In this document: positions 4,047 to 61,086 of the stretch, piece after piece
Layout of the letters: each line of letters opens with the position of its first letter
Position numbering within the stretch: position 1 is the stretch's first letter
Origin: Ulota crispa
Lineage: Eukaryota > Streptophyta > Bryopsida > Orthotrichales > Orthotrichaceae
DNA: 64,000 nt
Direction of reading: 5' to 3'
Assembly: GCA_963920765.1 (NCBI GenBank)
Contig: OY987244.1
Coordinates: forward strand, 2,110,501 to 2,174,500
Made by a program: the position numbers and the translations under genes
The notes under the pieces: generated by a model
The model's input: only the letters and a program-made list of their open reading frames with translations
Database searches by the model: none
Told to the model about the DNA's origin: nothing

Positions 4047-7000
4047 ATGGGTCGGATAATAGTTTGTGGTACCCTAATCTGGCTGTTATTTATCATTGTG
4101 AACAATTTGTATTTAAAAAGGTCCTTGTTCTCAACAACAATTGGCAAGTCATTAGATTTGCTTCTTCTTGGAGCGGAGGCAAGTGAGTTTGAAAGAAAGA
4201 GTGAGGGTATGAATTTTTTAGATTGGAGTAAAATTGTTGCAACTAAAGAGTCGCCGAAGTGGAGACACGGTTTGAGCAAAACCCTAATGGAAGATGACAA
4301 AACCCTAATAATGGAAGATGATCAATCAAGGGTGCATAGAGAGTTGGCTTTGAAGGAATGGGAGCATCATCTTATGAGAGAAAGTTTGCAAAAGTGGTTG
4401 ACTCCAACAGAGAAGTGGCATTTCTTGATAGGTTATAGCAATGTTAGAGCTTTGAGAGTGGCAAGGAAATTTGGCCAAGCCGGGGCACAAGTCCAATATT
4501 TCCCCGCTGCAAGTAATAATAGCTCTTTGCATTATTTATTGACCTTTACCAGTGTAGTCACAGCGAAGGTCCTTCGTAGTAAGAATTGCTTCTTCCATGT
4601 CGTGGAGCCGCTTCTTCCGTATCTCAAAATTGAAGACCTAACCCTAGGAAAATTGATCCGAGACCAAGAAGAATATGCAAAACAAGCAAGACCTACAAAT
4701 TCTCTCAACGAGGAGAAATATGCGTTGAAGGCAACGTTAGCTAATGGCGCTCTTACCATGCTTGAGGTCAAGATTCTCGCAAGACATTGGCAGATGGTTT
4801 TGCAGTTGGAGTCACAAGATCCACTATCATCGCGTGAACACACAAGCACGTTGCGCTACATGAACACAGTTGGCCAGACAGGTATTCACGATGTAGTTGA
4901 CAAAGAAGAACACATAACATACTACAAAGAGAGTTTAATATTTGCCAAGTTTCTTCATAAGACTCAAATGAATCCAAAGATGAGAAATTATGACCTAAGT
5001 CAAGTGCGATCCGCTTTAGCAATTGAGTGTCAAGGAGAGGCAACTACCATTACATGCTCTCCTATCACTAAATCAGCGCTACAAGGGACAACTGACTTCA
5101 TGGCTTTACATGCAGTGGTGCAACTTGTAGAACTGAATCCTCGTTACGAAGTGTTCAACAAATGGGCCAAGTATGTGACACAGGTAAGCTTGGGACCCTC
5201 AGCTCTTGAATGGTGCTCTCATCTCTTTGCTCTTTATTAAAAAATTTGTTTCACAATTGTATGCTAAAGCACATTTTTCATGTTCTATTATTCCAGAGTG
5301 TATCCGGAAAGCATCTTCCAATCTTCAATAAGGGATTGCTTGGCAAAGGAGAGGTGATTGCGTGTGCCGATACAGGGATTGATATGGATGTAAGATTTGC
5401 ATAGTAAACCACCTGTGCGGAAATTTTTAAATGAGACAACTCAAATATGTAGCCCTTAAGAAATTCAATTGGAGTTCTTGTACTCTATAACAGGTGAATG
5501 GGATAAGATATTTATTTTCTTGAGCTTTTTTGTACTGCAGCATTGTTTCTTTCAAGATAAATATCATCCCGTACCCTTTAATACGGTCAATGTGCAAGCT
5601 CGTAAAGTTGTGCAATACATGATATCATGGGGAGATAAGACAGACTTTGCGGAGGGCCATGGCACCCATGTAGCAGGAAGCATTGCCGGTGACACTGAAG
5701 GAGGTTCTAACCAATTTGCTGGCATGGCTCCGGCGGCCAAAATTGGTAAGCTACTTGTTCTCAACGCATTTAATTAAAAAAAAATGAGAATTTAATGAAA
5801 CTCACATTGCGCCCTCTCACTTGGTAAAGCTTCCAGATGCAACAACCATACTGGGATCCTAAGTTGTTTGTGTTTTATAGAGTTGCCATTGTAAATAAAT
5901 GATGAGTTCAAATACTGAACAGTTGGTTACGAGGCCTTTATAGTGAAGTGACTATATTTGCTATAAATATTGGAAGTTAAGCTTTGAAGATGAAAGTATG
6001 TTTGGCTAGTTCAGCATTTTGCGACCTAGGGAGTAATTCGTCAAACCTCAAAGCTCCAATTGAACTTGGAAAGGGAATCTTTGACTACGGTTACATGGCT
6101 GGAGCACGCATATTCTCCAATTCTTGGGGTAAGTGTTTGGTGACAATCTAATTCATCAAGTGCATGTTGTCACAAAATGATGATACGGCCATGTCCGTGC
6201 AGATTCAAACTTCCCTAGGGACATAGTTTCTTGATATTTCTTCCACTGATATTTAACATTGCCATAGGCTATTTGCTAAGCTTACTTTGTAAAGTAGAGT
6301 TTGACCAAGTATATATGTTTTCAAGTGGGCTTTTGGTGAAGAAAGTTTTTGTTATTAGAAATATCATGTCATTTGACTTTTTTAGGTGTTCTGGTTTGTG
6401 GGGTGTAAAACAGGCACATTGAGGCAAGGATATAGCTCAAACTCTCATGACGTGGATTTGTTTTCTTACTTGTAAGGTGACAATGTTTCTTTTCACTTCT
6501 TTTGGACTAAATTAAACTAGCTATAATACTTTTGGAAGCACAGTCCATGCAAGTGCAATCTCTCAATTAAGATGAAACACTAGGACCACAACATAGTTGT
6601 ACAATGTCATAATAGGAAATTTATTGTGGTCTTGAGCATTTAGTTCTGTTATAGACAACTTGGATTTCTCCTCTTGATAGAGGTATAAGTGTTTACATGT
6701 ATGTTGCTAGTAGCGTAGCTCTTTAAAACTTCTGACTGTGGTTGCAGGAACGAAAATGTGCTAATTGTCTTTGCAGTTGGTAATCAGGGTATACTTGGGA
6801 AGGGGTCTATTGCTAGCCCTGCCAGTTCTAAAAATTGTCTTGCGGTATGAACATTCTTCATGCCGCTTTGCAACTGCATTTGAGTTTAAAGTAATTGCCC
6901 ATTCAATTAGAAACAAAAATAGTCAAAAGCTGTGAAAATTTGTCATTGAGGAGAAAGCCTATGACGCTTTGCACATTGGTTTATTTTTACATTGACTTAT

Positions 7001-16307: not shown

Positions 16308-16678
16308 GAGCTTCTCCAGCCTTTCTCTCCAAACGGAGGACTAGAAATGGATTTTCCCGTGTGACTTTCCCTGTGCACGGTGCGACTTCGGGCGGGGGTC
16401 TAGCTTGACTCGCCAAAATGAGGATGAAAATAGAAAACTGTGGGACCACTGTCCGGAATCATCAAAAGTGATATGCACTGACAGCGGGTAGTGCCACAAT
16501 AGCAAATGAACTTCCAAAACAAGAACACATCAAATTTCTTGGATGCACTGAAAATTGACGTCTTGAAAGAGAAGTTTAATGAGGCCGGGAGGAATTTTAG
16601 TTTAGCGTGTCCTAGCTGGGTCCGCATCTTGCCCGAGCCCGGAGCTTCTCCGTTTGGCGAGCAAGGCTGGAGCTGCTC
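16308..16678. mobile_element. TIR element, about 371 bp
   Basis: The left end GAGCTTCTCCAGCC then CTCCAAACGGA is mirrored by TCCGTTTGGCG then GGCTGGAGCTGCTC at the right. That gives imperfect inverted ends of about 30 bp. It is GC-richer than its flanks. A direct repeat flanks it (AGAGTAGCAAAGCTTG at about 16196 and 16684), suggesting insertion into or beside an older repeat. Confidence 0.7.
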
Positions 16679-21016: not shown

Positions 21017-21939
21017 TTAACCCCTAAAATTCTTTTGTGTTTAGAGGCCCAAAACTGCTTCAACATACTAATCCCCAAATTAGGGTCAAAATATCCATTG
21101 AAACTTATTTTTTCACAAATTCAACCGTAGGATCCTTTAGTTGACTTGCACAACTACATTGTCCCAAAATTTTAGAATGAATGTCCCCACCAATTGCAAG
21201 ATCAATGTGCCCAAATTTCAAAATGTAGGCTTTTCTAATCCTTCTAGAAGGTGAAGTTTTGTTTTTCAAACTTCTTAGAGAAAAACACGTATGTTGCATT
21301 TCTTGTACAATTTTTGCAATATGTTGGAAAATGAGTTGAAAGCATATATAAAAAAAAATGACCAAAAAAAAACTTTGGATTCATTTTTACAAAAATTGTC
21401 AAGTGAAAAGTATTGATGAATGAAAGATGTAACTTATATGCTAATAAGTTCTGGAAGAATTTGAAAATTGTTAATCCCAATGGTGAGAATGCTCTTAAAG
21501 ACAATGAGTAACTTTAATTTTCATTTTCATTTGAAAATTTTCAAAATTGAGAGTACAAGATAACTTTAAATGTTTTTTCTACCCTCTTCCTACCTTCATT
21601 GCCCGCAAAATAAAACTCTTTTTAACTCTTACCTCATTATTTGGAATTGAGTGATTCAATTTTTTTTGAGTAGCTATCATTCTATACAATTATATAAAAA
21701 TAAAAAATAAAAAATTTAGAATATATGTTTTGCTACCCGTTTTGACATTGTAGGTGAAAAAACCTTATAACTTTTGCATTACTTATCGGAATGACATGAA
21801 ATAAAGCTTCACATGTAGATTATGATGAGTAGCATCCATCTTCAAAATTTCATGAAATTTTTCCAAATTATGAAGTCAATAGAGCCTGCCGGAGTTCTGA
21901 TAAAGACCAAAGTGGGCTCCTTGGGCCTTTAGGAGTTAA
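21017..21939 (+). mobile_element. TTAA-type MITE E, outer left copy
   Basis: Begins TTAA-CCCCTAAAATTC (21017) and ends CTTTAGGAG-TTAA (21936-21939), 923 bp. The copy is followed at once, sharing the TTAA, by its inverse. Open frames in it translate identically in the right arm (22910-23170 and 23049-23309), so the two arms look essentially identical. It lacks a transposase domain. Confidence 0.8.
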
Positions 21940-22066
21940 CTCCAAACTCCTAAAGGCCCAAGGAGCCCACTTTGGTCTTTATCAGAACTCCGGCAGGCTC
22001 TATTGACTTCATAATTTGGAAAAATTTCATGAAATTTTGAAGATGGATGCTACTCATCATAATCTA
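21936..22066 (-). mobile_element. Inverse copy of element E, broken by the assembly gap
   Basis: Starts at the shared TTAA and runs as the exact inverse of 21806-21936 until the N run. The palindrome centre is AGGAGTTAACTCC. Confidence 0.8.
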
Positions 22067-22266
22067 NNNNNNNNNNNNNNNNNNNNNNNNNNNNNNNNNN
22101 NNNNNNNNNNNNNNNNNNNNNNNNNNNNNNNNNNNNNNNNNNNNNNNNNNNNNNNNNNNNNNNNNNNNNNNNNNNNNNNNNNNNNNNNNNNNNNNNNNNN
22201 NNNNNNNNNNNNNNNNNNNNNNNNNNNNNNNNNNNNNNNNNNNNNNNNNNNNNNNNNNNNNNNNNN
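22067..22266. other. Assembly gap, 200 N
   Basis: Exactly 200 N within a palindrome. Any ORF spanning it is meaningless. The exact round size suggests a placeholder length rather than a measured distance. Confidence 0.98.
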
Positions 22267-22472
22267 TACCCGTTTTGACATTGTAGGTGAAAAAACCTTA
22301 TAACTTTTGCATTACTTATCGGAATGACATGAAATAAAGCTTCACATGTAGATTATGATGAGTAGCATCCATCTTCAAAATTTCATGAAATTTTTCCAAA
22401 TTATGAAGTCAATAGAGCCTGCCGGAGTTCTGATAAAGACCAAAGTGGGCTCCTTGGGCCTTTAGGAGTTAA
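22267..22472 (+). mobile_element. Element E, partial copy right of the gap
   Basis: Starts TACCCGTTTTGACATTG, equal to 21734 onward, and ends at TTAA 22469-22472. It differs from the left palindrome centre by one base (CCAACTCC against CCAAACTCC). Confidence 0.8.
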
Positions 22473-23397
22473 CTCCAACTCCTAAAGGCCCAAGGAGCCC
22501 ACTTTGGTCTTTATCAGAACTCCGGCAGGCTCTATTGACTTCATAATTTGGAAAAATTTCATGAAATTTTGAAGATGGATGCTACTCATCATAATCTACA
22601 TGTGAAGCTTTATTTCATGTCATTCCGATAAGTAATGCAAAAGTTATAAGGTTTTTTCACCTACAATGTCAAAACGGGTAGCAAAACATATATTCTAAAT
22701 TTTTTATTTTTTATTTTTATATAATTGTATAGAATGATAGCTACTCAAAAAAAATTGAATCACTCAATTCCAAATAATGAGGTAAGAGTTAAAAAGAGTT
22801 TTATTTTGCGGGCAATGAAGGTAGGAAGAGGGTAGAAAAAACATTTAAAGTTATCTTGTACTCTCAATTTTGAAAATTTTCAAATGAAAATGAAAATTAA
22901 AGTTACTCATTGTCTTTAAGAGCATTCTCACCATTGGGATTAACAATTTTCAAATTCTTCCAGAACTTATTAGCATATAAGTTACATCTTTCATTCATCA
23001 ATACTTTTCACTTGACAATTTTTGTAAAAATGAATCCAAAGTTTTTTTTTGGTCATTTTTTTTTATATATGCTTTCAACTCATTTTCCAACATATTGCAA
23101 AAATTGTACAAGAAATGCAACATACGTGTTTTTCTCTAAGAAGTTTGAAAAACAAAACTTCACCTTCTAGAAGGATTAGAAAAGCCTACATTTTGAAATT
23201 TGGGCACATTGATCTTGCAATTGGTGGGGACATTCATTCTAAAATTTTGGGACAATGTAGTTGTGCAAGTCAACTAAAGGATCCTACGGTTGAATTTGTG
23301 AAAAAATAAGTTTCAATGGATATTTTGACCCTAATTTGGGGATTAGTATGTTGAAGCAGTTTTGGGCCTCTAAACACAAAAGAATTTTAGGGGTTAA
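22469..23397 (-). mobile_element. TTAA-type MITE E, outer right inverse copy
   Basis: Full-length inverse of 21017-21939, ending TTTTAGGGG-TTAA at 23394-23397. Together with the left copy it makes a palindrome of about 2.4 kb including the gap. Confidence 0.8.
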
Positions 23398-31056: not shown

Positions 31057-33099
31057 GTTAGGGTTTTTATCTTCAATTTTGTCATTGCTACACAAATCTA
31101 TGTTTTAACCTGATACTCTCTTAGTTCCTCTAAAAAGCTCCAAATCAGACATATTTCTTGTACCACTAAAAATCTCCCTTTTGCTAATTTCAAACGCTGA
31201 GAAAGCTTTTGCCATGTTCAATGATCTCATGGAGGTAAGTCAAGCAATTAGAGAGCGATTCTTCTCCTAACAAGCTTGGCCTTGTCCCATATGAGTTATC
31301 ACTATTGTTGCTATCAATCTCTAAATCATCAATAACAAGAAGCTGGCAACATGCACAAATACAATACTTTTTGCATGGAATTTGTTAGGTGCCCAAATGA
31401 TGACATTAAAACTAGTGATTCTGCATACGCGGTAGCTTGAAAGAGTCTACATTCAAAGACAACTTTTGGCATCCAAATAGAAGACGATCACAAAACTTTG
31501 ACAAGTTTTGATTTCAAAGTAGCCCATTGAAGAGCAGACTTGATAGCAAAGGACGCATGGGTGCTACTAATGGTTACAAAGATTTACTAGGCACAAATAC
31601 GGTTGATGGACAAGGTAATTAGCTAAAAACTTATGTATACACATTTTTTACTGTAGGTTTGTACTTTCTACCATAAATGAATGGTAAAATGAAAAACACA
31701 GTTTTGTAATTGAAATTTAAAATGCATTTAAAGAGTAGAAAGCATAAATAAAAAAACACTCCATATTGTGTTATTTGGATTTGAACACTTGGAGCTTTCA
31801 ATGGCAATAACTTTTTCAATTTTTGACATTTTTCAAAACAAATAAACGGAATAGCAAGAAAACTTGTCAAGCTTCATCTTCTTAGTCTGAACAATGTACC
31901 AAAAATTGATATTTTGAAAGTTACAACCAGAGTTGACCAAGGCGCATCCACTTTTTGGATGCACGGAACTTTAGGGGTTAAAGAAGAAAAAAATTATATT
32001 TGCATAAAAGATGAGCTTGTCGAGGCAAACTTTCAATGAGCATTCTAATAAGAAACATTATTGATTGGTCGTCAACCATGCAGTTGTTATCAACCACCTC
32101 TTCATGATGAATGCATCATTAAAGGAATAGAAATGCATAAGTGGGATTCCCAAGTAGCTCCAACTCTTTGTCAAGCAGTAGTTTTGTATGGAAACTCAAA
32201 GCAACTTTGAAAGCGCCACTAAAGTTCTATCATTTAAGCCATTGGACTTTTTGATATGCGTTGGTGACTAAAGTTACAACAAGCCACATCTTATTAATAG
32301 TAATTATAAATATTGTAAAAAAATAAAGTTGAAATAACAAATTTAAACAATGATCATGAGAATGTTTTTTATGAAAACAATAAGATTCATTTTAGTGATA
32401 ATAACAAGATCAAATCTAGTGACAGTGACAAGACTTGTTTTTATACAATTAATTAGTATTATTGGCTATGTATTTTTATATTGGTGAGAATTTTGTTGTA
32501 AAGTTAGTATTATTTCCATGCATTTTTTTTGTAAATAAGCATTTTATAGCACTTGAAATAATAATAATTTTGTACAATTTTTCAAAATTAATGAGTCATA
32601 TATCACATTTTTAGTTTATCTAGATTTAAAATTTTACTAGCAATTTTCATTTAGCACGTTGTAGACATAAAAACTAAAGTAAAGGATTCATTTTTTTTTT
32701 AAACTTTTTTTGCATATTTGTGATTAATTGTATTAATACGTTTGAAATAACATCAAATTTTCTATTTTCTATTTAGAGTTAAAAAGTTGAAAAGTGGAAT
32801 CCATCCTAAATCTAAAATCTTGCAAACAATCTTTTTTGCCAAAGTAAGGATGAAGAATTAAGTTCATTAATTTTTTTTTTTCTTGAGTGTTTTATTTTTG
32901 CATCTTTTTAGTGGTTCATTTATAGCATTTGGACTCAAAATATAAAAATTTTATGTTTTATATAATTCTAGTGCTAAATTGCAATAATTTGAGATTTTTG
33001 AAAATTTGCTTACATCTTTCTATCTTGAAACAATGAAACAATGGACAAAGTTTAATTTTTTAATTTCTATGTATTTCTTGTATTTTTTAATTCTTTAAT
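31057..33099. other. Long AT-rich stretch, no gene; one TTAA-MITE right end
   Basis: At 31971-31982 ACTTTAGGGG-TTAA looks like a right end of a TTAA-type element; no matching left end was found. A small hairpin (GCGCATCCA against TGGATGCAC) precedes it. The rest is AT-rich without coding signal. Confidence 0.45.
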
Positions 33100-38098: not shown

Positions 38099-38753
38099 TT
38101 AATCCCTAAATGCCCAAGGCACCACATTTTGGTGCCAACAATATTTTGGAGTTTAGTGAAACTTAACTAAGCTACTATTTTTATTGTTTTGTATTTTATA
38201 ATGATCCTTTTTGAAGTCTAGTTTTAGCACCAAAAATCCGATTTTGAAAATTATTAATTGTGAATTTTCTATCCAAGATTTTGTGCAAGGGTGTCCATTG
38301 CAATCTTGATTTTTTTTAGTGTTGAGAGCTCATGGAAATGAGCCTCAAATACACTAGATCTTGGAGAAAAATTCACACTAGAAATTTGTTTAAAAGAATT
38401 GTGAAATAGATTTTGAAAAGTCATAAATAGACTGGAGTTATGTATGTTATGTCCTTTAACCTCATATATTTTTGGTAACCAACATTTTAGATTTGACATA
38501 TGAAAAGAGGATTAAAAGGCTTGAAATCATTTTTGCAATTTTAACACCCTCTTGATCAAACATTATAATCTTTCAATCCATAAGTGGTATTATTGTGTTT
38601 TCTTTTCCTATCTGATGTTTAACATATCTAATTTGAATTTGTACGGTTACAATTTGAAAAAAATTGATACAACTTATCAAAATGTTGACTTTTTGTTCAG
38701 TTCAGAGCAAATATCCAAAAGCTCAAAAAAGGCCTTGCGCATTTAGGGGTTAA
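38099..38753. mobile_element. TTAA-type MITE, 655 bp
   Basis: The left end TTAA-TCCCTAAATGCCCAAG at 38099 is mirrored at the right by CTTGCGCATTTAGGGG-TTAA ending 38753. TTAA flanks both sides. It also carries a small hairpin just inside the left end (GGCACCACATTTTGGTGCC). No transposase frame. Confidence 0.85.
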
Positions 38754-46717: not shown

Positions 46718-48463
46718 TTAACCCCTCATTGCCTAAGGTTCAAACATGCCTAAAAGCATCCTTTTCAAGTGGTGTAAGCCTAAATGTCAGTAAATAATGA
46801 TAATCTCAATTGTACAATCTTGTAGTGTGCATGATGCAAACAATGTGGATCAGATTTGGGGTCATTTAACCACATAAATTGGAAAATTATAAGTTTTAGA
46901 GTTTAAAAAAAATGCTAAAATTTTCTTATAAACACGTTTGGGTGAAACTAATTTCCAAACCTATTTAGATGAAAGACATTTAAAATGTAAAATGACTCAA
47001 ACCCAACATGCAAACACATTGGTAAAATAAAATATCACTCAATAGACTCATCATGTTTGCAAACTTGTTTTGAAATGTCAAAAAATAGTGAAAAAAGTAG
47101 CAAAATATCACATCTATGGCTAAACCTCCCTTTGGGCTTTTGCATGGTCAAATGGACCAAAAATGGGGGATAAAACCTCATAAAAGGTCCATTTCTACAA
47201 GTATGGATTACAAAATGTTTGTTTTCTTTTATACAAATATATGCATTATAAAAAAAAAAACCAAGCCCATGTAGCCATTAGGAAGGCTTTTGCAAAAGAA
47301 AAATAAATAAACTAAAAAAATGTTAAAATCATTAAGGTATTGCCGCCTAAACATTCAGCCTTAATTTGGGCTCTAAAAAGTCCATAGCTTTTATTGTATA
47401 TCACTTGTCTAAAATTCCAGCACATATTTGAAATACTTAAAAGATGCTAAATCACATATGTAGTCCCTGTGTACGCATTATAGCTAACTTAATACATTAT
47501 GTCTATCATTTTCATAGAATGCTGTAAATGGGACAATCCAAATATATGCATTGAAAGTCCCTTATTTCTTATATTATCAATTTTAACAAACATTGATTAC
47601 ATGTTTTGTTTTATGAAAAAGTATAGAACATATTCACTAATTTAGGTGCTTCCAAACTCTTTCTTCTATAAGAAATAAGCCATGCAATCAAAACATGTTC
47701 ATAAAAATTAAATGGGACACGCATTTTGGTCCAGCCGACCATGCATCCACCCCTCTACTAAAATGCTTTGCATTCATTCATAACTTCTTGGCTTGATATG
47801 AAACACAAACAAAAATAACTAGACTTGTGTGCACAAATTTTCCAATAAAAAACGTTGAAAATAAACTTTGCATATAGAAGTTATAAGCCACCAAAGTTCA
47901 CTATGATGCAGAAAAGTGTGCGTTTTGAACTTTGAGTTGCTCCCAAATATTTAAACAACTTGGATTGACATGATAATTTTACCACAACCATTTGACTTTA
48001 AAGAAAACAAAACCCAACAAATTTTTTATGGAAAACAAGCATTTGATGAAAAAGATCCAATCTCCCAAAGTTGCAGCCATCACAATGCAATGTGGTGAAC
48101 TCAAATTGAACATGTGAACTTTGAATGGCTTTCACAATCTCAATATGTCTTAAATTGATTTGAAAATTTTAGATAGAACCTAGACTAGGATGTGCAAATT
48201 TACTTACAAGTTTTATTGAATTTGAACAATAGATGCAAAAGTTATGGCATTTTAAATTGGATTGTCAAACCATTATACTAGAAGAAAAACATGTCTCAAA
48301 CAAATAGTTCACAATGACTATAAATGTCCTAAACAATTGTAATTGAATCATTATATAGTTGTTTAGGATAACTTCAGTTGTTTGTGAATCAATCGTTTAG
48401 GACCCATTTTTCTTCTAATAAGTTAGAAGAAATTTTATGTCCCCTACGGCAATGAGGGGTTAA
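46718..48463. mobile_element. Large TTAA-type element, about 1.75 kb
   Basis: The left end TTAA-CCCCTCATTGCC at 46718 is mirrored by GGCAATGAGGGG-TTAA ending 48463. This is the longest TTAA-flanked element in the window. It has no open frame of 60 codons or more, so it encodes no transposase. A smaller hairpin element (48273-48421) lies just inside its right end. Confidence 0.8.
48273..48421. mobile_element. Hairpin MITE nested in the large TTAA element
   Basis: Ends TTATACTAGAAGAAAAA and TTTTTCTTCTAATAA are inverted, with an inner pair TCCTAAACAA and TTGTTTAGGA. It resembles the CACTA-type ends in having GAAGAAAA but lacks the CACTA start. Confidence 0.7.
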
Positions 48464-48743: not shown

Positions 48744-49651
48744 TTAACTCTTTAAGGACCACACATATTTGCACAAATTTCACTATAAACAAGCGGGAGA
48801 TAAACTTAGATGCACAATTGAATCAAATATGAACAATTCCAATAATTCAAGCATACAAATGGGAAGAACACCTTGTCTATTGTAAAGCATAAAGATTAAA
48901 ACCAGATTTACCATTGGAGGTGAAATATTACAATGATTGAGTGAGCCGTAAGTGGAAAATTTCTAGTTTTTCATGCTTATATGGTTTTGAATGTTGACTC
49001 TTCATGCAAGTTGTACTTGATAAGAGCCTTATATTTCTAGAAAGTAGGGTTATCCACCTTTCCAATAAGACTAGTTTCATACAAAATGTATAAAAATTTA
49101 AAATCAACAATCACAAGGTGTAGCTTGGTGTAAAAAATCCCACATTATTTGCTACCTTAAAACAATTCTATAGTTTTTTGATAAATGCCATGAAAAATCC
49201 AATTGATAAAAATAATCACAATTTATCTTGAATAGAGGATGAAAAATTTTAAAAATAATATGACAACTCCATTTCAATAGATTTTCAAATACTACAATTT
49301 TATTGTTACTATACAGAGAAACAATACTAGCACAATTCTTAAGCGATTTAAAAAAATTGGAGTGTGCAATTGAAATGTGACATTCTTCTTGAATATTTGA
49401 TGTATTTTGTTGTTGTTTTGATCCATTTTTTACCAAAAATAGATACATATTCTAAGAATATGTTGTATAAACATCATTATTTGTCAACTCACATACCCAA
49501 TTTCATTATTATTGTTTTAATTGGATGCAAAAAATTTATGATTACATGCATTCTTTGAGACCAATTTCCAAATTATTAAGCGATTTGACTCTATAGGCCA
49601 AAAACCACTATTTGCAACCAAAATATGGTTGTGTGGTCCTTGAAGGGTTAA
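48744..49651. mobile_element. TTAA-type MITE, 908 bp
   Basis: The left end TTAA-CTCTTTAAGGACCACAC at 48744 is mirrored by GTGTGGTCCTTGAAGGG-TTAA ending 49651. TTAA at both sides. Open frames within are below 100 codons and without domain. Confidence 0.85.
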
Positions 49652-49832: not shown

Positions 49833-50751
49833 TTAACCCCTAAAGGACCAAGCAAAGTTCTCACCAAAAAGTCTTCAAAACTGCCATTTTTAGAGCATCA
49901 ACCAAATTTAAAAACAAAAACATTTTTAAACATATGTGACCGTAGGATCTTGTAGAAGAATAGTTTTAGAAGATGTGGAAAAAAATTCAGAGTTTTTCAT
50001 TGTGTGGATTGGAAGATAATATGGTTTGAATATTCAAAAACATCTTATGAAAAATCAAGCAACTACTCTTCAAAAGGTGAAATTCCTAAGAAAAAAAGGA
50101 CGTGTGGGTGGTACTTCTCTAAATTCCTTATTCCACCTAAGTAAAGTACATGTCAAAAGAGTTTCAAATTATCTGGAGTTGTATAACATATGGAAAAAAA
50201 TTAGTAAATAAAAAAAAGTAGAGAATGATTCAAAACACTAAATTGTTAAGAACTTAATTATGGAAATGAAAAATGCCAATTCCAATGGTTATAACGTTGT
50301 CACAAAAAATCTACATCCTTTGGTTTTGTTTTTTTTCAAAAATGTTGAAAATTGAGTGAAATAAAGGAATTCAAAGTTTATTTTAGAGTAGAGAATCCAT
50401 AACTACTAGCAAACAAAAAATCCTCACAACTTTCATTTTGTTGATCAAAACATAATGATTCAAAGCTTCTTACATTCACATAAATCTCCTAAACCAAGTT
50501 GATTTAAATTATTTTTGAAAAAAGTGCTTTTTAAAAATCTGCCCAAGCTACTTGACAAATGTAAAAAACAACATATTAGGCCATGACTTTTTACTCATAA
50601 TTCCAAATGTCATGAAATTTAGTGCATATGAAAGAGAACCCTTATTCCCACATTCTGTTAAAATTTCAGCTTAAAATATGAAAAGCTCCAATCACAGGTA
50701 CCTGCCCAAAATTGCTATGTTGCTAAAAAAGCGGGTCTGGTCCTTCAGGGT
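49833..50751 (+). mobile_element. TTAA-type MITE, family C, copy 1
   Basis: The left end TTAA-CCCCTAAAGGACCAAG at 49833 is followed by a sequence nearly identical to 57238-58153. The right end is worn (GGGTCTGGTCCTTCAGGGTC near 50751, without TTAA). Length about 919 bp. Confidence 0.8.
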
Positions 50752-51499
50752 CCAGGTTCCCGTTTACTTAGGGTGAAATTCCATGTGAGACTAACGTTGA
50801 TAAAGTCCATAAAAGACTAATAGTTGAACAATACACATGCATGGAAGCATGGCTTGTTGACAATAAAGGAATGGACAAAGCCATTTGGCACAATTCAATG
50901 ACAAAGTTCATATCTCAAGAAATTTGTATTGATTATGACTTTAGCTAAAATTAGTAATTGAATTTAACTTGCAAAAATAGATCACCAAAGTTATGTGACT
51001 TGCTACAACAAACACTAAGATCACATTTTTGTTCTGAACAGAGCTTGTCACACACCATTGAAAAGATACTATCAACAGCTTTTTAGCAATAATTCGTGCA
51101 TTCAATTTATTTAAGAACTTTGTCTCAGGAAATTCATTAAAAAAAAGGGTGGCAGCACATTGTAAAAACAAGCACGTTTTATATTTCATTGGCAACAAGA
51201 TAATTGTACTTCTTCATTTCTCACATGGAAATGACAAAATAAATTTATTAGTGATGTGAATAAACTTTTATCAACTTCAATTTCCGCCTCGGATCTTTAT
51301 TAACCTTTATAGCTTATAAAAATTTGTCCCTTTAGATATCTTCATACAAACCATTTAGAAAGCTTTCTAGTCACAAAAGTGAGACTTCAATCAAAGAGTT
51401 GGATCTGTCACAAATGGAAGCCAAGCTCAAGTTATATTCCAACAATACTTCTTGCATAAAATATGCGAGCACTTTTTATGATTATATATTTTTGCTCCT
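50752..51499. other. Intergenic, no gene
   Basis: Includes an 85-codon minus-strand frame at 50941-51198 with no recognisable domain. No repeat class identified. Confidence 0.3.
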
Positions 51500-51732
51500 T
51501 TAACCCTTAAACGTCCACAGGAACCATATATATGCTAATTTATAATTGTCATTTGCTACCGATAAGAAATTTTAATTTGGGATCTCAAGTAACTCACTAG
51601 AACCACATTGATCTATTCTCCAACTTCTTTGTTGGTCTCAAACGTAGTAAAGGTGTGGATCCATTCCAAATATAAGAAAAATACCCCATATTGTACTGGT
51701 CGCAGCGGCACGCTAGGACGTTTAGGGGTTAA
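51500..51732. mobile_element. Small TTAA-type MITE, family B, copy 1 (233 bp)
   Basis: The left end TTAA-CCCTTAAACGTCC at 51500 is mirrored by GGACGTTTAGGGG-TTAA ending 51732. Similar to 55325-55549 and, at the ends, to 59540-59950. It shares its right TTAA with the next element. Confidence 0.88.
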
Positions 51733-52873
51733 CCCCTAGAGGCCTAAAGTCCTCATAAAGGACAAAATGGATCCTAAGTAGACTTGGCGACAAAATTCTC
51801 TAAATTTTTTATGAAGGAGGGTTTTGTAAGAGCTACTAAGTCACACATGTTTATTGCAATTGAATTTACATGTAAAAGTTATGGAAGATTTTGGAGAATG
51901 TGCAAATTGGAGAGGTGTATTGAACATGACAACCATCCTTAACTTTTTCCAAGGGCAAGCAAAGAGGGAAATTCTACCAAGAAAAGACACACTGGGTGGA
52001 GTTCATGTGTCAGCCCTCGGTTCCCTATAACTTTCCAAAGTCACATTTTGACTGCAGAAATTTTGTTGTTTGACAAAAAAAATCCAATGTGACTAAACGT
52101 AATGAGAATTGATTTCATTCACTTAGAGCATTGGATGATTGAAAAGAAGGGATTAGAGGCTCCCAATGATGGGAACAAGCTTGGGAACATGTTAGAAACT
52201 CACAATGAACTTATCAAGACCTTTTATTTGAGTTTGCCCTAAGCATTAGTGTATCAAATATACACGTTACTTTTTGAATCGCAATACCTACTAAAGATTT
52301 GATTATTTTTGCTTTCTTATGTGACATCAATAAGGGCAATTCCTTTCAACTTGTTGTTGAGATTTTTGTTTTTCAACTTGTTGTTGAGATTTTTGTTTTT
52401 CAAATATAGGCTTTAGACATTTGTTTTCTCAAAATTCTTAGTGTATAGTGAATTCCTACCACATGTTTGCAATGCAAAGGCCATGTAGAGTGTGTCATGT
52501 CCACATTGGCCATGAAATTTGTGGAAATATGCTTAACATGATGTAGAGAGTGTCAAATCAATAAATTCATCACTCATAGTGCAAAAATGTCCTCAACAAA
52601 TGGTCAAAAGGTTTGAGTTTTTTGAGTAAGGACCCAATTTTTTTAAGACTAACTTCAAATGATAATATCTCTTGAATTGTATGGTTGAACTTCACAAAAA
52701 ATTATGCTATCTTTCTACATAAACCTAGTACAAAGCCCAACAATTCTATTTCTAAAAAACAAAAGAATTTGTTCTCAAAATTAAAGGGTTAGAAGTAGTA
52801 GTTCTAAGTAGTTAAAAAGAAGAAGATGGGCTTCAAGGAGTAAAACCCACCAAACATTGGTAGGTGAAGTTAA
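51729..52873 (+). mobile_element. TTAA-type element, abutting the previous one
   Basis: Starts TTAA-CCCCTAGAGGCC at the shared TTAA (51729-51732). The next TTAA-CCCCTAAAGG lies at 52870-52873, so the element probably runs up to it, but its right inverted end is not recognisable. Its middle resembles 33100-34205. A 27-bp tandem duplication (unit starting TTCAACTTGTTGTTGAG) lies at 52345-52402. Confidence 0.55.
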
Positions 52874-53430
52874 CCCCTAAAGGACCTAATGTTAGTTCTA
52901 CAAACATTTGAGAACTTGGGTAGGGTCATATGAAGTTAATTTTTACTAGATGTTTTCAAAATTGTTACACAAGGTGTAAATATTTATCCCCCAAAAAGGC
53001 ATGTAATTTTCCCCAATTGGATGCCCAATTCAAAAGCTATGGTGCCCAGATGAATTTGGGCAGCTTGAGCAATTTGGGCATCTTTACAAAAATTTATTCT
53101 AAATCTCTCATTAACTTTTGAAATTTGGCTTGTATGTCACCAATGAAATATGATATATAATTGTCAAGAAAAAAAAAACTTCAAGTTCTCAAATTGTATT
53201 CTTAGAGGAGCCAAACTTTGTTCACTATATCTAGGCGGTTTCAAGAAAAAATATTTTGTCTAACTTCAAGCCTTATTATGTTGCAATCTAAAACTTCAAA
53301 GCTCTTGAATATGTTTTTCACATACTCCAAATGTTTGTCTCTAATTTTCAGTATTCAAAATTCATAAAAAATAATTCCTTTGCATGAGAAATCATGAAAA
53401 AATGACAAGTGTATTACCAGTTCCTTAGCT
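52870..53430 (+). mobile_element. TTAA-type element, left part only
   Basis: Starts TTAA-CCCCTAAAGGACCTAATG at 52870. No right end was found before the next element begins at 53431, so it is either truncated or interrupted by it. Confidence 0.55.
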
Positions 53431-54367
53431 TTAAGCCCTAAAGGTCCAAGCCCTTATTTTTGTGAAAGTCATTGGTAGCTGCCACTTTTGGAGAAATGAG
53501 TAGAAAAGTAGGAAAATAAAATTCATTTGGAAATCCAAGCATAAGGACTTGCCCTAGACTATGGGAGGTACTTGTAGAAAAACAATTCAGCTCATTCTAG
53601 ATGTAGAGAAGTGAGACACTAACATTAAAATGGAAAAAAAGTTTTTATCCTTGCTATCCAAAAACTTCAGAAGCCTTTGACTGCTCCTATATTAAAAAAA
53701 TTGCTCTATGCAAAAGTTGAGGTTTCTTTTTCCCATGTTGAAGACCAAAATTGGTAAGTGGGGGAAAATCTTCAAATGAATTGGAGGTGTGGATCATACT
53801 TTGTAAAACCTTGCAATATTGTAAGGCCATGAAATTGCATAAACACTAGGCAAAATTGGAGGATTTATGTAAAATTAAAAAATCTGAACTACTTTTATCC
53901 AAATGGTGAGAATCAAGGAATCTTAGCCTATTGCAACTTGGAAAAAAAAAACCCAAAAAAATATATACAAAGAGCCCAAATAAGAAGAGCACCAAATTTT
54001 AAAAGGATTAAAAGAAATGGAAGTTTGGGAGTCCCCCCAAGATGGGCACCTTCCACTCCACTCCTCTTTGCCCAAGTGTCCACACCTTGTACGGCTATGC
54101 TCATTAGAGCTCACTCTTTTTGAAGTCAACACCCACTTACAAAGAAGAGGCATTGTCTAAACTGCCCCTTCCCACCTAGTTTCAAATAATTCTTGATAAC
54201 TTCTTCATTGAATGTCAAAATGGAGAAAAAATTAAATAATTGCGTAGGTCTTGGAATTCCTCACCTTCCATAAAAGTTTCAAAAAATCACACAAACTAGT
54301 TTAGCTTTAAGTACATGCTCAAAATCCATTTGTTCTCCAAGGGGATAGTTGGGCCTTTAGGAGTTAA
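53431..54367 (+). mobile_element. TTAA-type MITE, family A, 937 bp
   Basis: The left end TTAA-GCCCTAAAGGTCCAAG at 53431 is mirrored by GGGCCTTTAGGAG-TTAA ending 54367. Internal similarity to 1874-2430 and 60149-61086. Confidence 0.85.
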
Positions 54368-55324
54368 CCTCTTTGCATTGCAGGGTGATTTAGAATAAGC
54401 TAGATTCTATATTTGCTTCTAAATTTTTTTGTGAGTGAACCTAACGTCATATACTTATGAATAGTGAAAAATCTCATTTTTACATAGAGAAACAAATTTA
54501 CTCCATGAGGGCTTAAAGTTTGCTAACCTTGTTCTGCACACATGAAAAATAGTTGTTGTTTTCACTTCAAATGTTATGATCTTACAATCCATGCGCTCAA
54601 ATGGGCTGGAATAGTTTGTGACCATTGATTATATGTTTAACGCACATTTGTACACTTGAAATTCAGAAAAAAAGTTATTATTTCCAATTTTGGGCAATGC
54701 ACCAAATATGGGCAATTTTTGAGATTTTTTCTCAAAAAACACCCTTGATATTTTATGAGGGTTAAATAGGGGTCCATACAAAAGTTCTACATTCAATATT
54801 TCATTTAGGTTGCCTCAACAATTACATTGCCTTACTTAAGAAATTTGTTTCATGACTCATTGTGTGACCACTTGGAGGCACATGCAACTATCTAGATACT
54901 AAGATTTCACATGATTTACAACTTGAATGTTGCTAGTTTGTTATTTTGTAGCTTGGTTGTTGTTGCCAAGCCCTTTCATTTTTTTTATTGCAATATTTAT
55001 TAATGAAAATTATTGTATTAACAGCACGTATTTACATGATGTAAAATGTTGAGAAATGAGAGCAGGGCTTTTTTAATTTGAACTATAGCATCGCTACGTA
55101 CCCTCTCCAGTGAGGAGCATTTTGCAAGGGATAGCCATTTATTGATACCGAATCTTACTGTAGCAAATCTGGAGCCAAGAGGAAAAATAATAAAATAAAA
55201 ATCTATGAATGAGAGTGGGGCAATTTAAAAGCAATATTTAATGTAGTGCAAAGCGCCTTCTTTGTAGCGTTTCATACAGAAGAAAATCAAATCAATAGAA
55301 CAAACCCACATTGATTTGATGTTG
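54368..55324. repeat. Intergenic with dispersed repeat also seen at 19990
   Basis: Bases about 54800-55020 match about 19990-20200 (AAGATTTCACATGATTTAC; TTGTTGTTGCCAAG). The rest shows no gene. Confidence 0.5.
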
Positions 55325-55549
55325 TTAACCTCCAAACATCTTATGGGGATAGTAGATACAATTCTATATAGTTAGGCAATTACTACCCAACAAGAAGTTT
55401 TATTTCGGGCACATTAGAATTACATTGATTTATATTCCAATCTTTTAGTGGACCTTAAGTGTATCAAAGGTGTGGACCCATTTCATACACAATAGAAGTA
55501 CTTTGTATTGTGTTAGTGGCAAAGGCATTTTTAATCATTTAGAGATTAA
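55325..55549. mobile_element. Small TTAA-type MITE, family B, copy 2 (225 bp)
   Basis: The left end TTAA-CCTCCAAACATC at 55325 pairs imperfectly with ATCATTTAGAGA-TTAA ending 55549. Internal match to 51500-51732 (AAGGTGTGGA then CCATT; ACATTGAT then TATTCCAA). More decayed than copy 1. Confidence 0.75.
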
Positions 55550-56261
55550 CCCCTAAAGGACCAACTGTCCCCTTGGAGGACAAATGGGATTTTGGGTATG
55601 TACTTACAACTAAACTACTTTGTATGACTTTCTGAAATTTTAATGGAAGATGGGGAATTCAAAAATCTACATGGGCATCTAATATTTTTTCATTTTGATG
55701 ATTATTGAAGAAGTTAAAAATGGATTTTTGGAAAAAGGCCCAGATCCAGCAACCCAAAAATTCTTTAAAAATTACATTTAAAAGAAATAAATATATGAAA
55801 TAGGTTTTTTAGACTTATATATAGGTGGGGAGCTTTGAATCATTCAATTTTCATTGATGAGATGAAAGTTATGAGAAGTTTTTGTTTGCGAGTAGGTTGA
55901 GAGAAACTATACCTACCCGCAAACAAAAACTTCTCATAACTTTCATCTCATCAATGAAAATTGAATGATTCAAAGCTCCCCACCTATATATAAGTCTAAA
56001 AAACCTATTTCATATATTTATTTCTTTTAAATGCAATTTAAAAAAAAATTTTGGGTTGCTGGATCTAGGCCTTTTTCCAAAAATCCATTTTTAACTTCTT
56101 CAATAATCATCAAAATGAAAAAATATTAGATGCCCATGTAGATCTTTGAATTCCCCATCTTCCATTAAAATTTCAGAAAATCATACAGAATAATTTAGTT
56201 GTATGTACATACCCAAAATCCCATTTGTCCCCGAGGGGACAGTTGATCCTTTAGGGGTTAA
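55546..56261. mobile_element. Complete foldback TTAA-type element, 716 bp
   Basis: TTAA-CCCCTAAAGGACCAAC at 55546 and its inverse GATCCTTTAGGGG-TTAA ending 56261. The inverted arms are about 350 bp each, nearly identical, and meet at a centre of about 13 bp near 55898-55910. It shares TTAA with the element on its left. Confidence 0.9.
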
Positions 56262-57241
56262 ACCCTCAAAGGACAAGGGCATGTAATATGTAGGTCTATA
56301 GCTTCTGAGGCAAAACAGTATAAGACTTTAAAAAAATTCAAAAACAAGATCTACGTTTTTGTAAGTTTTTCATCATTTTTGTCATCTTTACATGAATTAA
56401 TTAATAGACTTTCACAAATATCGTGAAACATCCAATGAGAAGTATTAGTCACATGTTCAAAAAAATAGATAAACATTGCTTTCTAGAGCATACTTGAAAG
56501 TATTCATCTGTTTCACACATCTCCTACGGTGAGCGCTTGGAGTCATTCAAATGTCCACATTCTAGACATTGGCACTCTCAAGGGCTAAAGATGAAGTGAG
56601 AAACATCACTCAACCTTAAAAGAAAAAAGAAAAAAGTCGAATCTAGTGACATGCTCACAAAAACACAAAGCTCTTAACTACAGTAGTGTTCTAAAAATTA
56701 GCCAATTTGAAGGAATCTTTTTTTTAAATGAATAATCGAAAACCATGGAGAAAAATGTGGATTTATAGAGCATGCCCATCTCAACTTGATTCCCAAAACT
56801 TGAATCTCAACAAGTTACTGCAATGTGAATGTTTTGAACCTAGGAAGGGATTTTTTTTGCAATTGAGGTAACTTAAAGAAGGAAGTTAGACATGCTGATA
56901 GCACACTCTACTATTACATAAACGTTGCTTGAACAAATACTTTGCATTTTTAGTTGCCATATACTTGTGAACCTAGAGTACTTCCCCAAGCAGTTGAAAT
57001 ATGCAATGGAATTTTTTCAGAAATTGCAAAGTGGTGTCACGTTGCGTAATGTCACTTTTGTCATAAGCGACAATATGTTGTTCAAGCAACATTACACAAA
57101 CTTAGGACCTCACGCACAAAAAATCTCACATTTGTGCCATTGGTTAAGGTAGGTAGCTCAAATTGTAACCCCTCTCATAGAAAGCATCCAACAAGTAGTT
57201 CAAAAATGGTAATGAAGTGGTCCTTGAATAGACTTCTTTAA
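56258..57241. mobile_element. Probable TTAA-type element in a chain, 984 bp
   Basis: Bounded by the shared TTAA at 56258 and at 57238. The left end TTAA-ACCCTCAAAGGACAAG and right end GTGGTCCTTGAATAGAC then TTAA resemble weakly the ends of 48744-49651. Ends are imperfect, so this is less certain than its neighbours. Confidence 0.5.
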
Positions 57242-58153
57242 CCCCTAAAGGACCAAGCAAATTTTTCACCAAAAACTCTTCAAAACTGCCATTTTTAGAG
57301 CATCAACCAAATTTGAAAACAAAAATATTTTTATGCATATGTGACCGTAGAATCTTGTAGAATAATGGTTTTAAAAGAAGTGGAAAAAAAATCAAAGTTT
57401 TCCACAACGTGGATTGGAAATTAGAATGGTTTGAATATTCAAAAATGTCTTGTGAAAAACCGGGCAGCTACCCTTCAAAAGGTGAAATTCCTAAGGAAAA
57501 AGGCCATGTGGGTGGTGCTTCTCTAAATTCCTTATTTTGCCTAAGTAAAGTACATGTCAAAAAAGTTTCAAATCATTTGGAGTTGTATAACATATGGAAA
57601 TAAATTAGTAAGTAAAAAGAAGTAAAGAATGATTCAAAACATTAAATTGTTAAGAATTTTGGAAATGAAAAATGCCAATCCCAATGGTCAAAATGTTGTC
57701 ATAAACAATGTTCATCCTTTGGTTTTGTTCTTTTTCCAAAATATTGAAAATTGAGTAAAATATAGGACTTCAAAGTTTATTTTGGAGTAGAGAATCCATA
57801 ACTGCCCATAAACAAAAAATCCTCATAACTTTCATCTCATTGATCCAAATGGAATGGTTTGAAGCTTCCTACATTCACATGAATCTCCTAAACCCATTTA
57901 AAAATTTCGTTTTTGAAAAAAGCAAATTTTAGAAATCTGCCCAAGCTGCCCGCCGAACATAAAAAGCAACACATTAGGCCATGACTTTTTACACATAATT
58001 CAAAGTGTCATGAAATTTAGTGCATATGAAAGATAAACCTTGTCCCCACATTTTATTAAAATTTCAACCTAAAATATGAGAAGCTCCAATCACAGGTACG
58101 TGCCCAAAATTGCTATGTTTCTAAAAAAGGGGGTTTGGTCATTTAGGGGTTAA
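57238..58153 (+). mobile_element. TTAA-type MITE, family C, copy 2, 916 bp
   Basis: The left end TTAA-CCCCTAAAGGACCAAG at 57238 and the right end GGTCATTTAGGGG-TTAA ending 58153. Nearly co-linear with 49833-50751 with only scattered differences, including the open frame reading VHVKRVSNYLELYNIWK in one copy and VHVKKVSNHLELYNIWK in the other. Confidence 0.88.
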
Positions 58154-58164
58154 GTGATAGAAAA

Positions 58165-58425
58165 CAAAGTGTATTCTACTACAAGAGCCAATTGTATTCC
58201 TTGATTTCACCTCATCTCTTTATAAGTTGCAAAGGAACAGTTTATGGAATATCTAGAGTCACAAATAGGTACCTATCATAAATTTTTTAAAGGACTATTA
58301 ATAGATCAAGAATGCTTCAAAAAATATGAAAAAAAATTGTGTTCCATTTGGCATCCATTTCTCTTAGTCTAGAAATTAGACCAAAATCTTCTTGTCTTGA
58401 AAAACCCATGAAAAAACATACCAAA
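58165..58425 (+). repeat. Dispersed repeat, inverse copy of 15150-15415
   Basis: Matches the reverse complement of 15150-15415 as noted there. It begins only about a dozen bases after the TTAA of the preceding element. Confidence 0.75.
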
Positions 58426-58462
58426 CCTTAAAGTGACAATTTTAGAGCATACTACCTTAATA

Positions 58463-58660
58463 ACATTTAACTACTTCTGGACTATTCAATGAATTATAAA
58501 CTAAGCATCTTCTGAGAAAAACACTAGGAGATCTCCCAATAGTTGTTTGGATTGGGAGATCTCCCAATGTTTTGAATAGACCTCCCAGTGTCCAACTTGT
58601 TGTTCTCTTGATGACCGTTACAAATTTAGGACTTTCAAAAGCCCAGAAGTAGTTAAATGT
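58463..58660. mobile_element. Inverted-repeat element, 198 bp, with inner hairpin
   Basis: Outer ends ACATTTAACTACTTCTGG and its exact inverse ending 58660. Inside, CACTAGGAGATCTCCCAAT (58522) faces ATTGGGAGATCTCC, and CACTAGGAG pairs with CTCCCAGTG ending 58590. Confidence 0.7.
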
Positions 58661-58743
58661 GACACCTTACTCAAGCTCTGCCTTTCTTCTTGATCCCTTC
58701 AACATGAGAATGGCCTTGCATGAGGCCCTTACTCTACATCTTT

Positions 58744-59543
58744 TTAAGCCCTGAGCGCATTAGGGGCTTTAATATTGCCCTTGGAAATTATATTTTTTTC
58801 AAAATCTGGTCTAAATCAAAATTGTACTACCCAAAAAAATATACTTGGTCAAGGGTATGGTACTACTCTCATGCCACATAGTGGGCGATGGGGGTTTCAC
58901 CACTTGTACAATTATAGATTGTGCAAGCCAAGTATGACAATAGTGTTCTAGAACTTCATTTTGTGCGGTTTAGGGTTTAGGTGTGAGGATAGAGACCATC
59001 AACTATGGCTGGTTCCATATTGTTAGGGATGTTTTGGCACGCAAGCCTCAAACTGGATAAGGGTTTTACAGTTGTACCATCAAGAGCCATGTCCTTGTGG
59101 AGGTCAAAGCTGTACCCGTACCCTGTCTATTGTCCATCATGCAATATGAGCCTTGCAACTTTGAGCATCAAAAAAAGCACCTTGCAGATGTCAAATTATC
59201 ACCAAATTTGGTAGCAAGCAAGATATCAATAAATTGCACCCTTTGCCAAAATCTCATTAGAAGAAGCTTCCTCTAAGGCATAAATTTTTGCATCCACAAC
59301 CACAAACCTCCCCAAAATTGGCCGGTTGCCACATAGTCAAATGTACTTTGACTATTATAATTTATGAAATGGTGCTGTCAAAAGTTTTACAAATTTTTGG
59401 TTAGGTGCATCAAGCAATCTTTTTGCTATTTTAGCATTAAATCCTCCCCAATCTAAGTTCCCAGCATAGGGTGTACAGTTTTTTTGAGCAGGGTCACTCC
59501 TGGCCTCATTTTCTCAATTTCACTGCGGGCGCTCAGGGGTTAA
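58744..59543. mobile_element. TTAA-type MITE, 800 bp
   Basis: The left end TTAA-GCCCTGAGCGC at 58744 is mirrored by GCGCTCAGGGG-TTAA ending 59543. It shares its right TTAA with the next element. Contains a 69-codon frame without domain. Confidence 0.8.
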
Positions 59544-59950
59544 CCCTTAAACAACCATATGCAACCCTAAAATCCTGGCCATATTGCAATTCTACGGTGA
59601 CTCAAATCTAATTTTCATTCTTTTTTTGCCGCGGATTGTGAATTGGAGCGGCTGGACAAGGGCGCTAGCTCTTGGCGCTCTGGCAGCATGTTCATTTTGG
59701 GGATCCACTGTAGGGTTCTATAAGTTGCAGATACGCTCTAGCTACGTATTTATAACCTACCTCCAATACAAACGCATTGCAAAATCAGAAAAACAATTGC
59801 AGAAACATGCCAAACATTGCAAAAGGTGGAGACGAACAGCAATACACAACCCTCAAAAATCCAAGCAAAACCTAAAACAACAACACCCCTAGATACGGGA
59901 AAAATACCCTATTCTGGCTATAGCAGCATGTTGTGTCATTTAGGGGTTAA
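59540..59950. mobile_element. TTAA-type MITE, family B relative, 411 bp
   Basis: The left end TTAA-CCCTTAAACAACC at 59540, the right end TGTCATTTAGGGG-TTAA ending 59950. Right third resembles 51690-51732 (GAAAAATACCC). The middle (about 59620-59740) is GC-rich and absent from the 233-bp copies, possibly an acquired insert. It contains a 102-codon frame (59584-59892) with no recognised domain. Confidence 0.75.
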
Positions 59951-60148
59951 ACAACTTGAGTAATTTTATGAAAGGAACAAATTTACATTACCTAACCATG
60001 TCACATGGCAAACACTTGCACACAAGTGTGGCACACTCTCACGCTCTTGCCATTTGGCTTTTCAATAAGCAAGGCCCACTCTCTAGCTGTGCTTCCGTTG
60101 AAAGTCCATGTAAGCGGGCCATGAAAGGGTGGGGTTCAAGGGAATCCA
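59951..60148. other. Short spacer between two TTAA elements
   Basis: About 200 bp, with a small inverted pair ACACTTG and CAAGTGT near 60015. No gene is supported. Confidence 0.3.
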
Positions 60149-61086
60149 TTAACCCCTAAAGGCCCAAGCAGTTTTCTCCAGTGAAAGTTACTGTTAACTA
60201 CCACTTTTGGGGGAATGTGTAGAAAAGTAGGAAATAAAGTTTGTTTTGCAAATCCAACTATAGGATCTTGCCCCACACTAGAAGAGGTACTTGTGGGAAA
60301 AAATCAAGTCATTCTAGATGGAGGGGAGGGAGATAATTACATCTAACGTGAAAAAAAAGGTTTTTTTCTGTGCTGTCCAAAAAAATTCAAAAGCCTTTAT
60401 CCACACTTACATGAAAAAAATTACTCTACATAAAATTGAGGTTTATTTTTTCCATGTAGCAGACCAAGTTAGGCATGTGTGGAAGAATTTTCAAATCAAT
60501 TGAAACTATACAACACATGGGGGAAAATAGTAAGTAAAAATAAGTAGAGAATTAGTCAAATCACTAAATTGTTAAGAATTTAATTGTTGAAATGAAAAAT
60601 GCAAATCCCAACAGTTATGATGTTGTATTAAACAATCTACTTCCACTGGTGTAGTTTATTTTCCAAAATATTGAAAATTGTGGAAAATAATGGACTTCAA
60701 AGTTTATTTTAGAGGAGAGGATCCGTAAGTGCTCACAAACTAAAATATCTCATAAGTTTCATCTCATCAATTGAAGTTGAATGATTCAAAGCTTCCCACA
60801 TACGAAAAAATCTAAAGAACTAATTTCAGATTTCTATTTTTAGAAAAAGCAAATTTTTAAGAAGTTTTTGGGTTGCCCAAATTGCCCTCCCTCCCGTGGG
60901 CAGCAAAAAATCTTGCATATCTTCTTTGTCAAATGTCAAAATGACAAAAAAATTAAATTCCCACGTAAGTCTTAGAATTCCTCACCTTCAATAAAAATTT
61001 TAAAAAATCACAAAAACTAAATTAACTATAGGTACATACCCGAAATCTCAACTGTCCCCGGGGACAGCTGAGCCTTTAGGGGTTAA
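60149..61086 (+). mobile_element. TTAA-type MITE, family A, 938 bp
   Basis: The left end TTAA-CCCCTAAAGGCCCAAG at 60149 is mirrored by CTGAGCCTTTAGGGG-TTAA ending 61086. Co-linear with 53431-54367 over its length. Confidence 0.9.

Follow-up and report, generated by a model that had tools for sequence, protein, structure and literature searches.

Which transposase superfamily gave rise to the short, TTAA-flanked elements found in numbers in a 64-kb stretch of the genome of the moss Ulota crispa (C3:2110501-2174500, the window throughout this text; GC content 34.6%)? The original prediction had described elements that start TTAA-CCC(C/T)TNAA and end with the inverse, and had tied them to piggyBac through termini and target alone. 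The evidence below makes us highly confident that the window elements are non-autonomous miniature inverted-repeat transposable elements (MITEs) of the piggyBac superfamily, whose main group derives from larger piggyBac elements. The assembly comprises 274.8 Mb in 157 contigs, ten contigs of 15.8-41.4 Mb summing to ~265 Mb and C11 reaching at least 5 Mb.

The predicted population is confirmed: the window has 18 exact TTAACCC[CT]TNAA ends, 8 of them left and 10 right, against 0.23 expected from 30 first-order Markov simulations. A wider motif, TTAACCC.T.A..G.CC, occurs 10 times exactly and 25 times at ≤1 mismatch, with 0 and 0 for the reversed control, while the counts are 30 versus 9 at ≤2 mismatches and 36 versus 34 at ≤3; because the control rises in this way, looser matches are no evidence and only ends at ≤1 mismatch are taken as solid. 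Across the genome, TTAACCCYTNANNGNCC is found at 31,318 places (15,685 + 15,633) versus 9 (4 + 5) for the reversed pattern, and TTAACCCYTNAARGNCC at 16,585 (8,307 + 8,278) versus 2 (1 + 1). TTAA directly precedes 3,038 of the 3,614 exact inner ends CCCCTAAAGGACCAAG (84%). A chance origin of the ends is thus ruled out by simulations and reversed-motif controls, in the window and genome-wide. By a rough calculation with two ends each, the exact ends amount to about 15,600 elements' worth, or ~57 per Mb; at ~0.9 kb each these would cover ~5% of the genome, a figure likewise roughly calculated and not measured.

Re-measurement returned the lengths originally reported (225, 411, 655, 716, 800, ~920 and 1746 bp); the 655-bp and 1746-bp elements fall outside the interval first assigned to them, 49833-61086. 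The elements have the properties of MITEs, being short, bounded by terminal inverted repeats and target-site duplications, present in high copy number, free of transposase coding and derived from an autonomous relative; among the listed matches to PF13843 (DDE_Tnp_1_7), which are a lower bound, none lies inside the window.

Transposase loci with the same ends

DDE_Tnp_1_7 transposases, the partners to which the original prediction had pointed, are plentiful. The profile search of the genome gave at least 120 matches, some of them in elements with these ends; all those listed are over the cut-off, the best at E 1.3e-73, and the identity was also confirmed by hmmscan. When two clade members served as queries, 114 and 130 matches were obtained, many of the 130 at places outside the profile listing. 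In a phmmer comparison with solved structures, the protein of locus L039 matched T. ni piggyBac (6x67, E 4.1e-20) over the first two catalytic-aspartate regions and piggyBat (9c0f, E 5.8e-17) over all three, with no further structure at E ≤ 0.1. L042 has DEMM, DNFF and VADQ motifs; in both L039 and L042, the catalytic aspartates are those known for piggyBac. A complete cysteine-rich motif, CxxC...YCxxC...C...CF..FH, is present in L056 and, with one cysteine replaced, in L042; a narrow scan for it in six sequences gave no hit in the four others.

Sixteen of these transposase loci were read over 7-9 kb each, together with ten L042-related loci. Five of the 16 have an end at ≤1 mismatch on either side (L040, 5,027 bp; L043, 5,586; L045, 6,010; L046, 5,746; L047, 5,102); L049 (5,288 bp) has both ends only at 3 and 2 mismatches. 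The terminal inverted repeats of the bounded loci begin with CCC, as do those of the window elements.

The derivation of the ~930-bp MITEs is clearest in the L042 clade, represented by loci L055-L064, of which L055 is L042 itself. In 8 of these 10 loci (L056-L060, L062-L064) a correctly oriented end, TTAACCCCTRAARGAYY, stands 1.26-1.48 kb beyond the transposase match, 6 of the 8 being exact to the 17-base pattern; in L055 the right (R) end lies beyond the short locus, at 6437 in L042, and for L061 no end belonging to the locus itself lies within reach. The similarity to piggyBac therefore no longer stops at the termini: ~350-545 bp of subterminal DNA at the R ends of these DDE_Tnp_1_7 loci is homologous to the ~930-bp MITEs at 68-88%, the best match being 354 bp at 88.4% between L056 and the L025 MITE. 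A subterminal comparison with the transposase loci took in 12 window elements, and those starting at 49833, 53431, 57238 and 60149 have 95-199 bp of subterminal DNA in common with L056/L058, at 68-74%.

Could these R ends simply belong to MITEs that landed downstream of transposase genes? MITEs are dense, with about one exact end per 8.8 kb by the TTAACCCYTNANNGNCC counts; the downstream end of L050 is part of a complete, separate MITE, and L061 has a neighbouring MITE copy. In 8 of the 10 loci, however, the end stands at a near-equal distance and in the same orientation, and only part of the MITE is present, which is why these are not MITEs beside genes. L056 and L058 are 81% identical over 1.3 kb of transposase and 80% over the last ~635 bp, with ~0.5 kb between them unaligned, and their similarity halts precisely at the TTAA of the R end. 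Among the 16 loci, ends at ≤1 mismatch within 2.8 kb comprise 12 downstream R (one of them the L050 MITE) versus 2 downstream L (left), 5 upstream L and 3 upstream R. On the fixed distance, the L056/L058 boundary and this tally, we reject mere adjacency of MITEs and transposases, and chance landing is a most improbable source of the R ends.

The target site leaves a second alternative, since TTAA is not unique to piggyBac and is also the target of Kolobok and Sola3: another such superfamily might have made the MITEs, with the piggyBac transposases as coincidental neighbours. That three window elements show no subterminal match to the sampled transposases, and two more hardly any, speaks for it. 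Against it stand the long homologous stretches of subterminal DNA in MITEs and DDE_Tnp_1_7 loci, at a near-fixed distance from the transposase, and the 5 of 16 loci that have the same end motif on either flank, so that we give it very little credence. The original prediction had allowed for partners with the same ends and another class of transposase; the partners found encode DDE_Tnp_1_7, and for the main MITE group a different class is contradicted by those of the L042 clade.

A candidate whole element of this clade spans 7,179 bp at C1:661173-668351. Its L end (L035) is in the correct orientation, with the first ~190-207 bp 83-90% identical to the other MITE end; L042-like transposase pieces at C1:665966-667021 lie on the same strand as that end, and the R end (668332-668351) stands 1.33 kb downstream of them, as in other copies. 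For TAAAGGACC ends, the R end is observed at transposase loci and the L end comes from coordinates only, the both-ended elements being of other end types.

A conserved N-terminal segment, at most ~120 amino acids long and with a core near RQIAKLLGW, lies ~2 kb upstream of the DDE domain in 10 of the 16 loci (L039, L040, L041, L043, L047, L048, L050, L051, L052 and L054; tblastn E ≤ 0.001). It was not found in L042, L044, L046, L053, L056 or L058, and was borderline in L045 and L049; scans of three copies against Pfam gave no match. As a separate observation, the transposase frame of L042 is followed directly by a long (TACA)-type tetranucleotide microsatellite (~4870-5460). A search for viral relatives of the transposase gave five pattern matches, 0 of them confirmed.

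Empty sites and the proposed origin

The TTAA target, which the original prediction expected to see at empty sites, was examined by a single query that combined the joined flanks of 11 window elements. Among the 43 rows listed, the junction of 38099 is spanned by 1, that of 57238 by 2 and that of 53431 by 37, while 3 are flanks of the window elements' own filled sites. The genome-wide search gave no empty site for the remaining eight window elements, as expected if their flanks are unique. Exactly one TTAA is present at the empty site L067 (C5:10847163-10847282) of 38099-38753 and at the empty site L068 of 57238-58153. The joined flanks of 53431-54367 match uninterrupted MITEs, and L050 and L021 again have a single TTAA where the flanks meet. 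The expectation is thus borne out at L067, L068, L050 and L021, the other sites being mutated.

Several observations weigh against an origin of the window elements from larger piggyBac elements. At the target site, the second empty site of 57238 (L069) has a 1-base gap, and 5 of the 7 aligned empty sites of 53431 (L031, L010, L011, L020 and L042) do not have TTAA there; in L031 and L010 there is no leftover duplication and the target differs from TTAA. At the transposase loci, L039, L051, L053, L054 and L042 itself have an R end alone and L052 an L end alone; at L044 a single R-type end lies downstream, with 1 mismatch, and L041 and L048 have no bounding ends in the loci read. The transposase frame of L039 breaks ahead of the C-terminal part. 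In the TAAAGGACC clade, no L end of L056 or L058 was recognisable in 2 kb more upstream. The C1 candidate combines coordinates that come from separate searches, and over the first 1.5 kb of it only the terminal 18 bp align to L056/L058. Among the MITEs, 21017-23397, 48744-49651 and 51500-51732 lack a subterminal match to any sampled transposase element, and 59540-59950 has just 14 bp in common with them.

For some minor MITE types these last points could mean that piggyBac transposases mobilised them in trans, the full-length elements being gone or outside the sample. Such types carry the TTAACCCYTNANNGNCC motif, whole or in part, without subterminal DNA of the sampled transposase elements; yet with only 16 + 10 loci sampled of well over 120, direct parents may exist, and we treat mobilisation in trans as a serious possibility that falls somewhat short of an even chance.

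A derivation from larger piggyBac elements accounts for the main group as follows. The ~17-bp ends (TTAA-CCCYTNANNGNCC) derive from piggyBac elements of ~5-7 kb in this genome, which encode DDE_Tnp_1_7, and the main ~930-bp group has several hundred bp of subterminal DNA from them as well. If known piggyBac biochemistry applies, the transposase would have bound the ends in trans, excised the elements through hairpin intermediates and inserted them into TTAA, duplicating it. The MITEs would have arisen through internal deletions and multiplied for as long as there were live sources of transposase. Stops occur in 29 of the first 30 listed transposase rows, and ten listed rows, some partial, are without them; because most listed copies carry stops, piggyBac activity has, to judge from sequence, probably faded. 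Of 32 sampled elements, 20 are matched by a neighbour from the same sample over >80% of their length, at 80-92% identity, a similarity that gives no close dating because the sample is small.

Two features of the transposase copies can be set beside this. A hand tally of the first 30 listed rows gave 64 TAG, 37 TGA and 16 TAA stops, though the genome is AT-rich; C-to-T decay at methylated CHG and CG sites would fit the TAG/TGA excess. The L044 locus (C1:1178000-1185000) holds a DDE_Tnp_1_7 gene whose reading pieces are without stops, two presumed introns with GT-AG borders giving a continuous homologous frame. Its clade is large, the closest other matches being mostly 65-73% identical and mostly with stops, so that a single-copy domesticated gene is rejected and "intact-looking member" is all that holds; the copy may be intact or co-opted.

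Relation to known piggyBac systems

The transposases resemble those of the piggyBac superfamily, as represented by T. ni piggyBac (6x67) and piggyBat (9c0f), in the DDE_Tnp_1_7 domain, three catalytic aspartates and a C-terminal cysteine-rich domain, and the elements resemble it in TTAA target and CCC-starting ends. Unlike T. ni piggyBac, which is ~2.5 kb long, the elements here measure 5.0-6.0 kb where both ends were read, and unlike known piggyBac they have, in 10 of 16 loci, the N-terminal segment far upstream of the DDE domain, and a land-plant host. The LOB domain, restricted to land plants and close relatives, supplies 22 PF03195 matches in the genome and 0 in 14 control genomes. With animal piggyBac MITEs, for example those of coral, the window elements have in common that they are short, non-coding, TTAA-flanked and present in high copy number; they differ in their plant host and in the 31,318 exact ends in 275 Mb.

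piggyBac, a much-used tool for engineering animal genomes, is best known from insects, and its natural history has mostly been told from animals, fungi and protists. The original prediction had held that the superfamily is not a standard part of plant repeat catalogues, which is a fair statement with exceptions. A MITE survey of 207 plant genomes names five main superfamilies without piggyBac among them, and neither the word piggyBac nor TTAA occurs in its main text (PMC12550479). In contrast, PiggyBac is included in a review's list of MITE superfamilies in angiosperms (PMC10004981), and 1,230 PiggyBac copies stand in the repeat table of C-Fern (PMC6890710). piggyBac-like elements are also reported to occur in plants (PMC8086355), and the presence of the superfamily there is therefore not new. 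MITE structure is common to the groups of the plant survey and the elements here, and the group averages given there, 44.3-120.2 MITEs per Mb (PMC12550479), compare with the rough 57 per Mb of a single superfamily in this moss. Among the literature entries listed, which for the larger result sets (225, 598 and 186 papers) were the best 20, no description of a moss piggyBac or piggyBac MITE was recognised. To this the present analysis adds the density of the elements, their transposase clades and a demonstration of how the main MITE group was derived, for a superfamily that is itself known and is unusually abundant for a plant.

We tentatively suggest, at somewhat less than even odds, that a distinct bryophyte piggyBac lineage is the leading MITE source in this genome. 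It would comprise several end types (TAAAGG, TAAATG, TCATTG, TAAGCG and TTTA..GACC), each with its own transposase clade, in elements of 5-7 kb, with introns in at least one member, apparently, and with a new N-terminal domain in several clades (core near (Y/F)(R/K)QIAKLLGW; not found in the TAAAGGACC clade). Such a lineage could have resided in land plants since early times or have come in by an ancient horizontal transfer. A plant genome with piggyBac as a major MITE source and many transposase copies makes the history of piggyBac in plants directly testable and provides plant-resident ends and transposases for study; it also suggests that such elements will escape plant MITE pipelines that lack a TTAA class.

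Individual elements of the window

The coordinates below are given without strand. Five elements form a ~930-bp class of 908-938 bp (48744-49651, 49833-~50755, 53431-54367, 57238-58153 and 60149-61086), four of them piggyBac MITEs of the main group. The ~923-bp MITE at 49833-50755, of the TAAAGGACC group, has lost its right TTAA, and its right limit was inferred by alignment to the 57238 copy (pieces at 76-91%); its subterminal match is to L056, L058 and L042. The 937-bp MITE at 53431-54367 (168-195 bp subterminal match to L056/L058) is nested in an older TAAAGGACC-group MITE at 52870-54765, which it splits and which measures ~963 bp without the insert; the older copy has its left end at 52870 and a right TTAACCC at 54765, this right end and the span being inferred. 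In the same group, the 916-bp MITE at 57238-58153 matches the R ends of L042 (64 bp/81%) and L056 (161 bp/68%), and the 938-bp MITE at 60149-61086 has subterminal matches to L058 (196 bp/74%) and L056 (199 bp/71%). The 908-bp element at 48744-49651 has TTTAAGGACCACAC / TTCAAGGACCACAC ends, both found, and similar copies adjoin transposases in L039, L047 and L053.

Other end types also point to transposase elements. The 655-bp piggyBac MITE at 38099-38753, of the TAAATGCC end type with TTAATCCC as its left end, matches there the left end of transposase element L046 (49 bp/80%). The 1746-bp element at 46718-48463, of the TCATTGCC end type with both ends found, matches at its right end the 5' end of L040 (25 bp/88%). 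The 800-bp element at 58744-59543 is of the TGAGCGC type, with its left end at 3 mismatches, and weakly matches the end of L054 (57 bp/70%, E 0.007). One TTAA serves as its right flank and as the left flank of the 411-bp element at 59540-59950. In the same manner, the right TTAA of the TAAACGTCC-type MITE at 51500-51732 (225 bp, or 233 bp when both TTAA are counted; an 82% copy lies in L033) doubles as the left TTAA of a further element, which starts at 51729.

Two elements have inverted arms. That at 21017-23397 (2381 bp) consists of two inverted ~922-bp arms, and the lone arm occurs elsewhere as an independent element at 88-89% (L013, L023, L034), which suggests a composite. The 716-bp foldback MITE at 55546-56261 has two 328-nt arms, 95% complementary and 13 nt apart, and shares a 19-bp terminus, letter for letter, with the R ends of L056 and L058; the foldback is a possible source of small-RNA hairpins. 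Rfam and tRNA scans of the window gave no hits, and the window contains a TAXi_N domain over the cut-off and a short sub-threshold AP2 piece.

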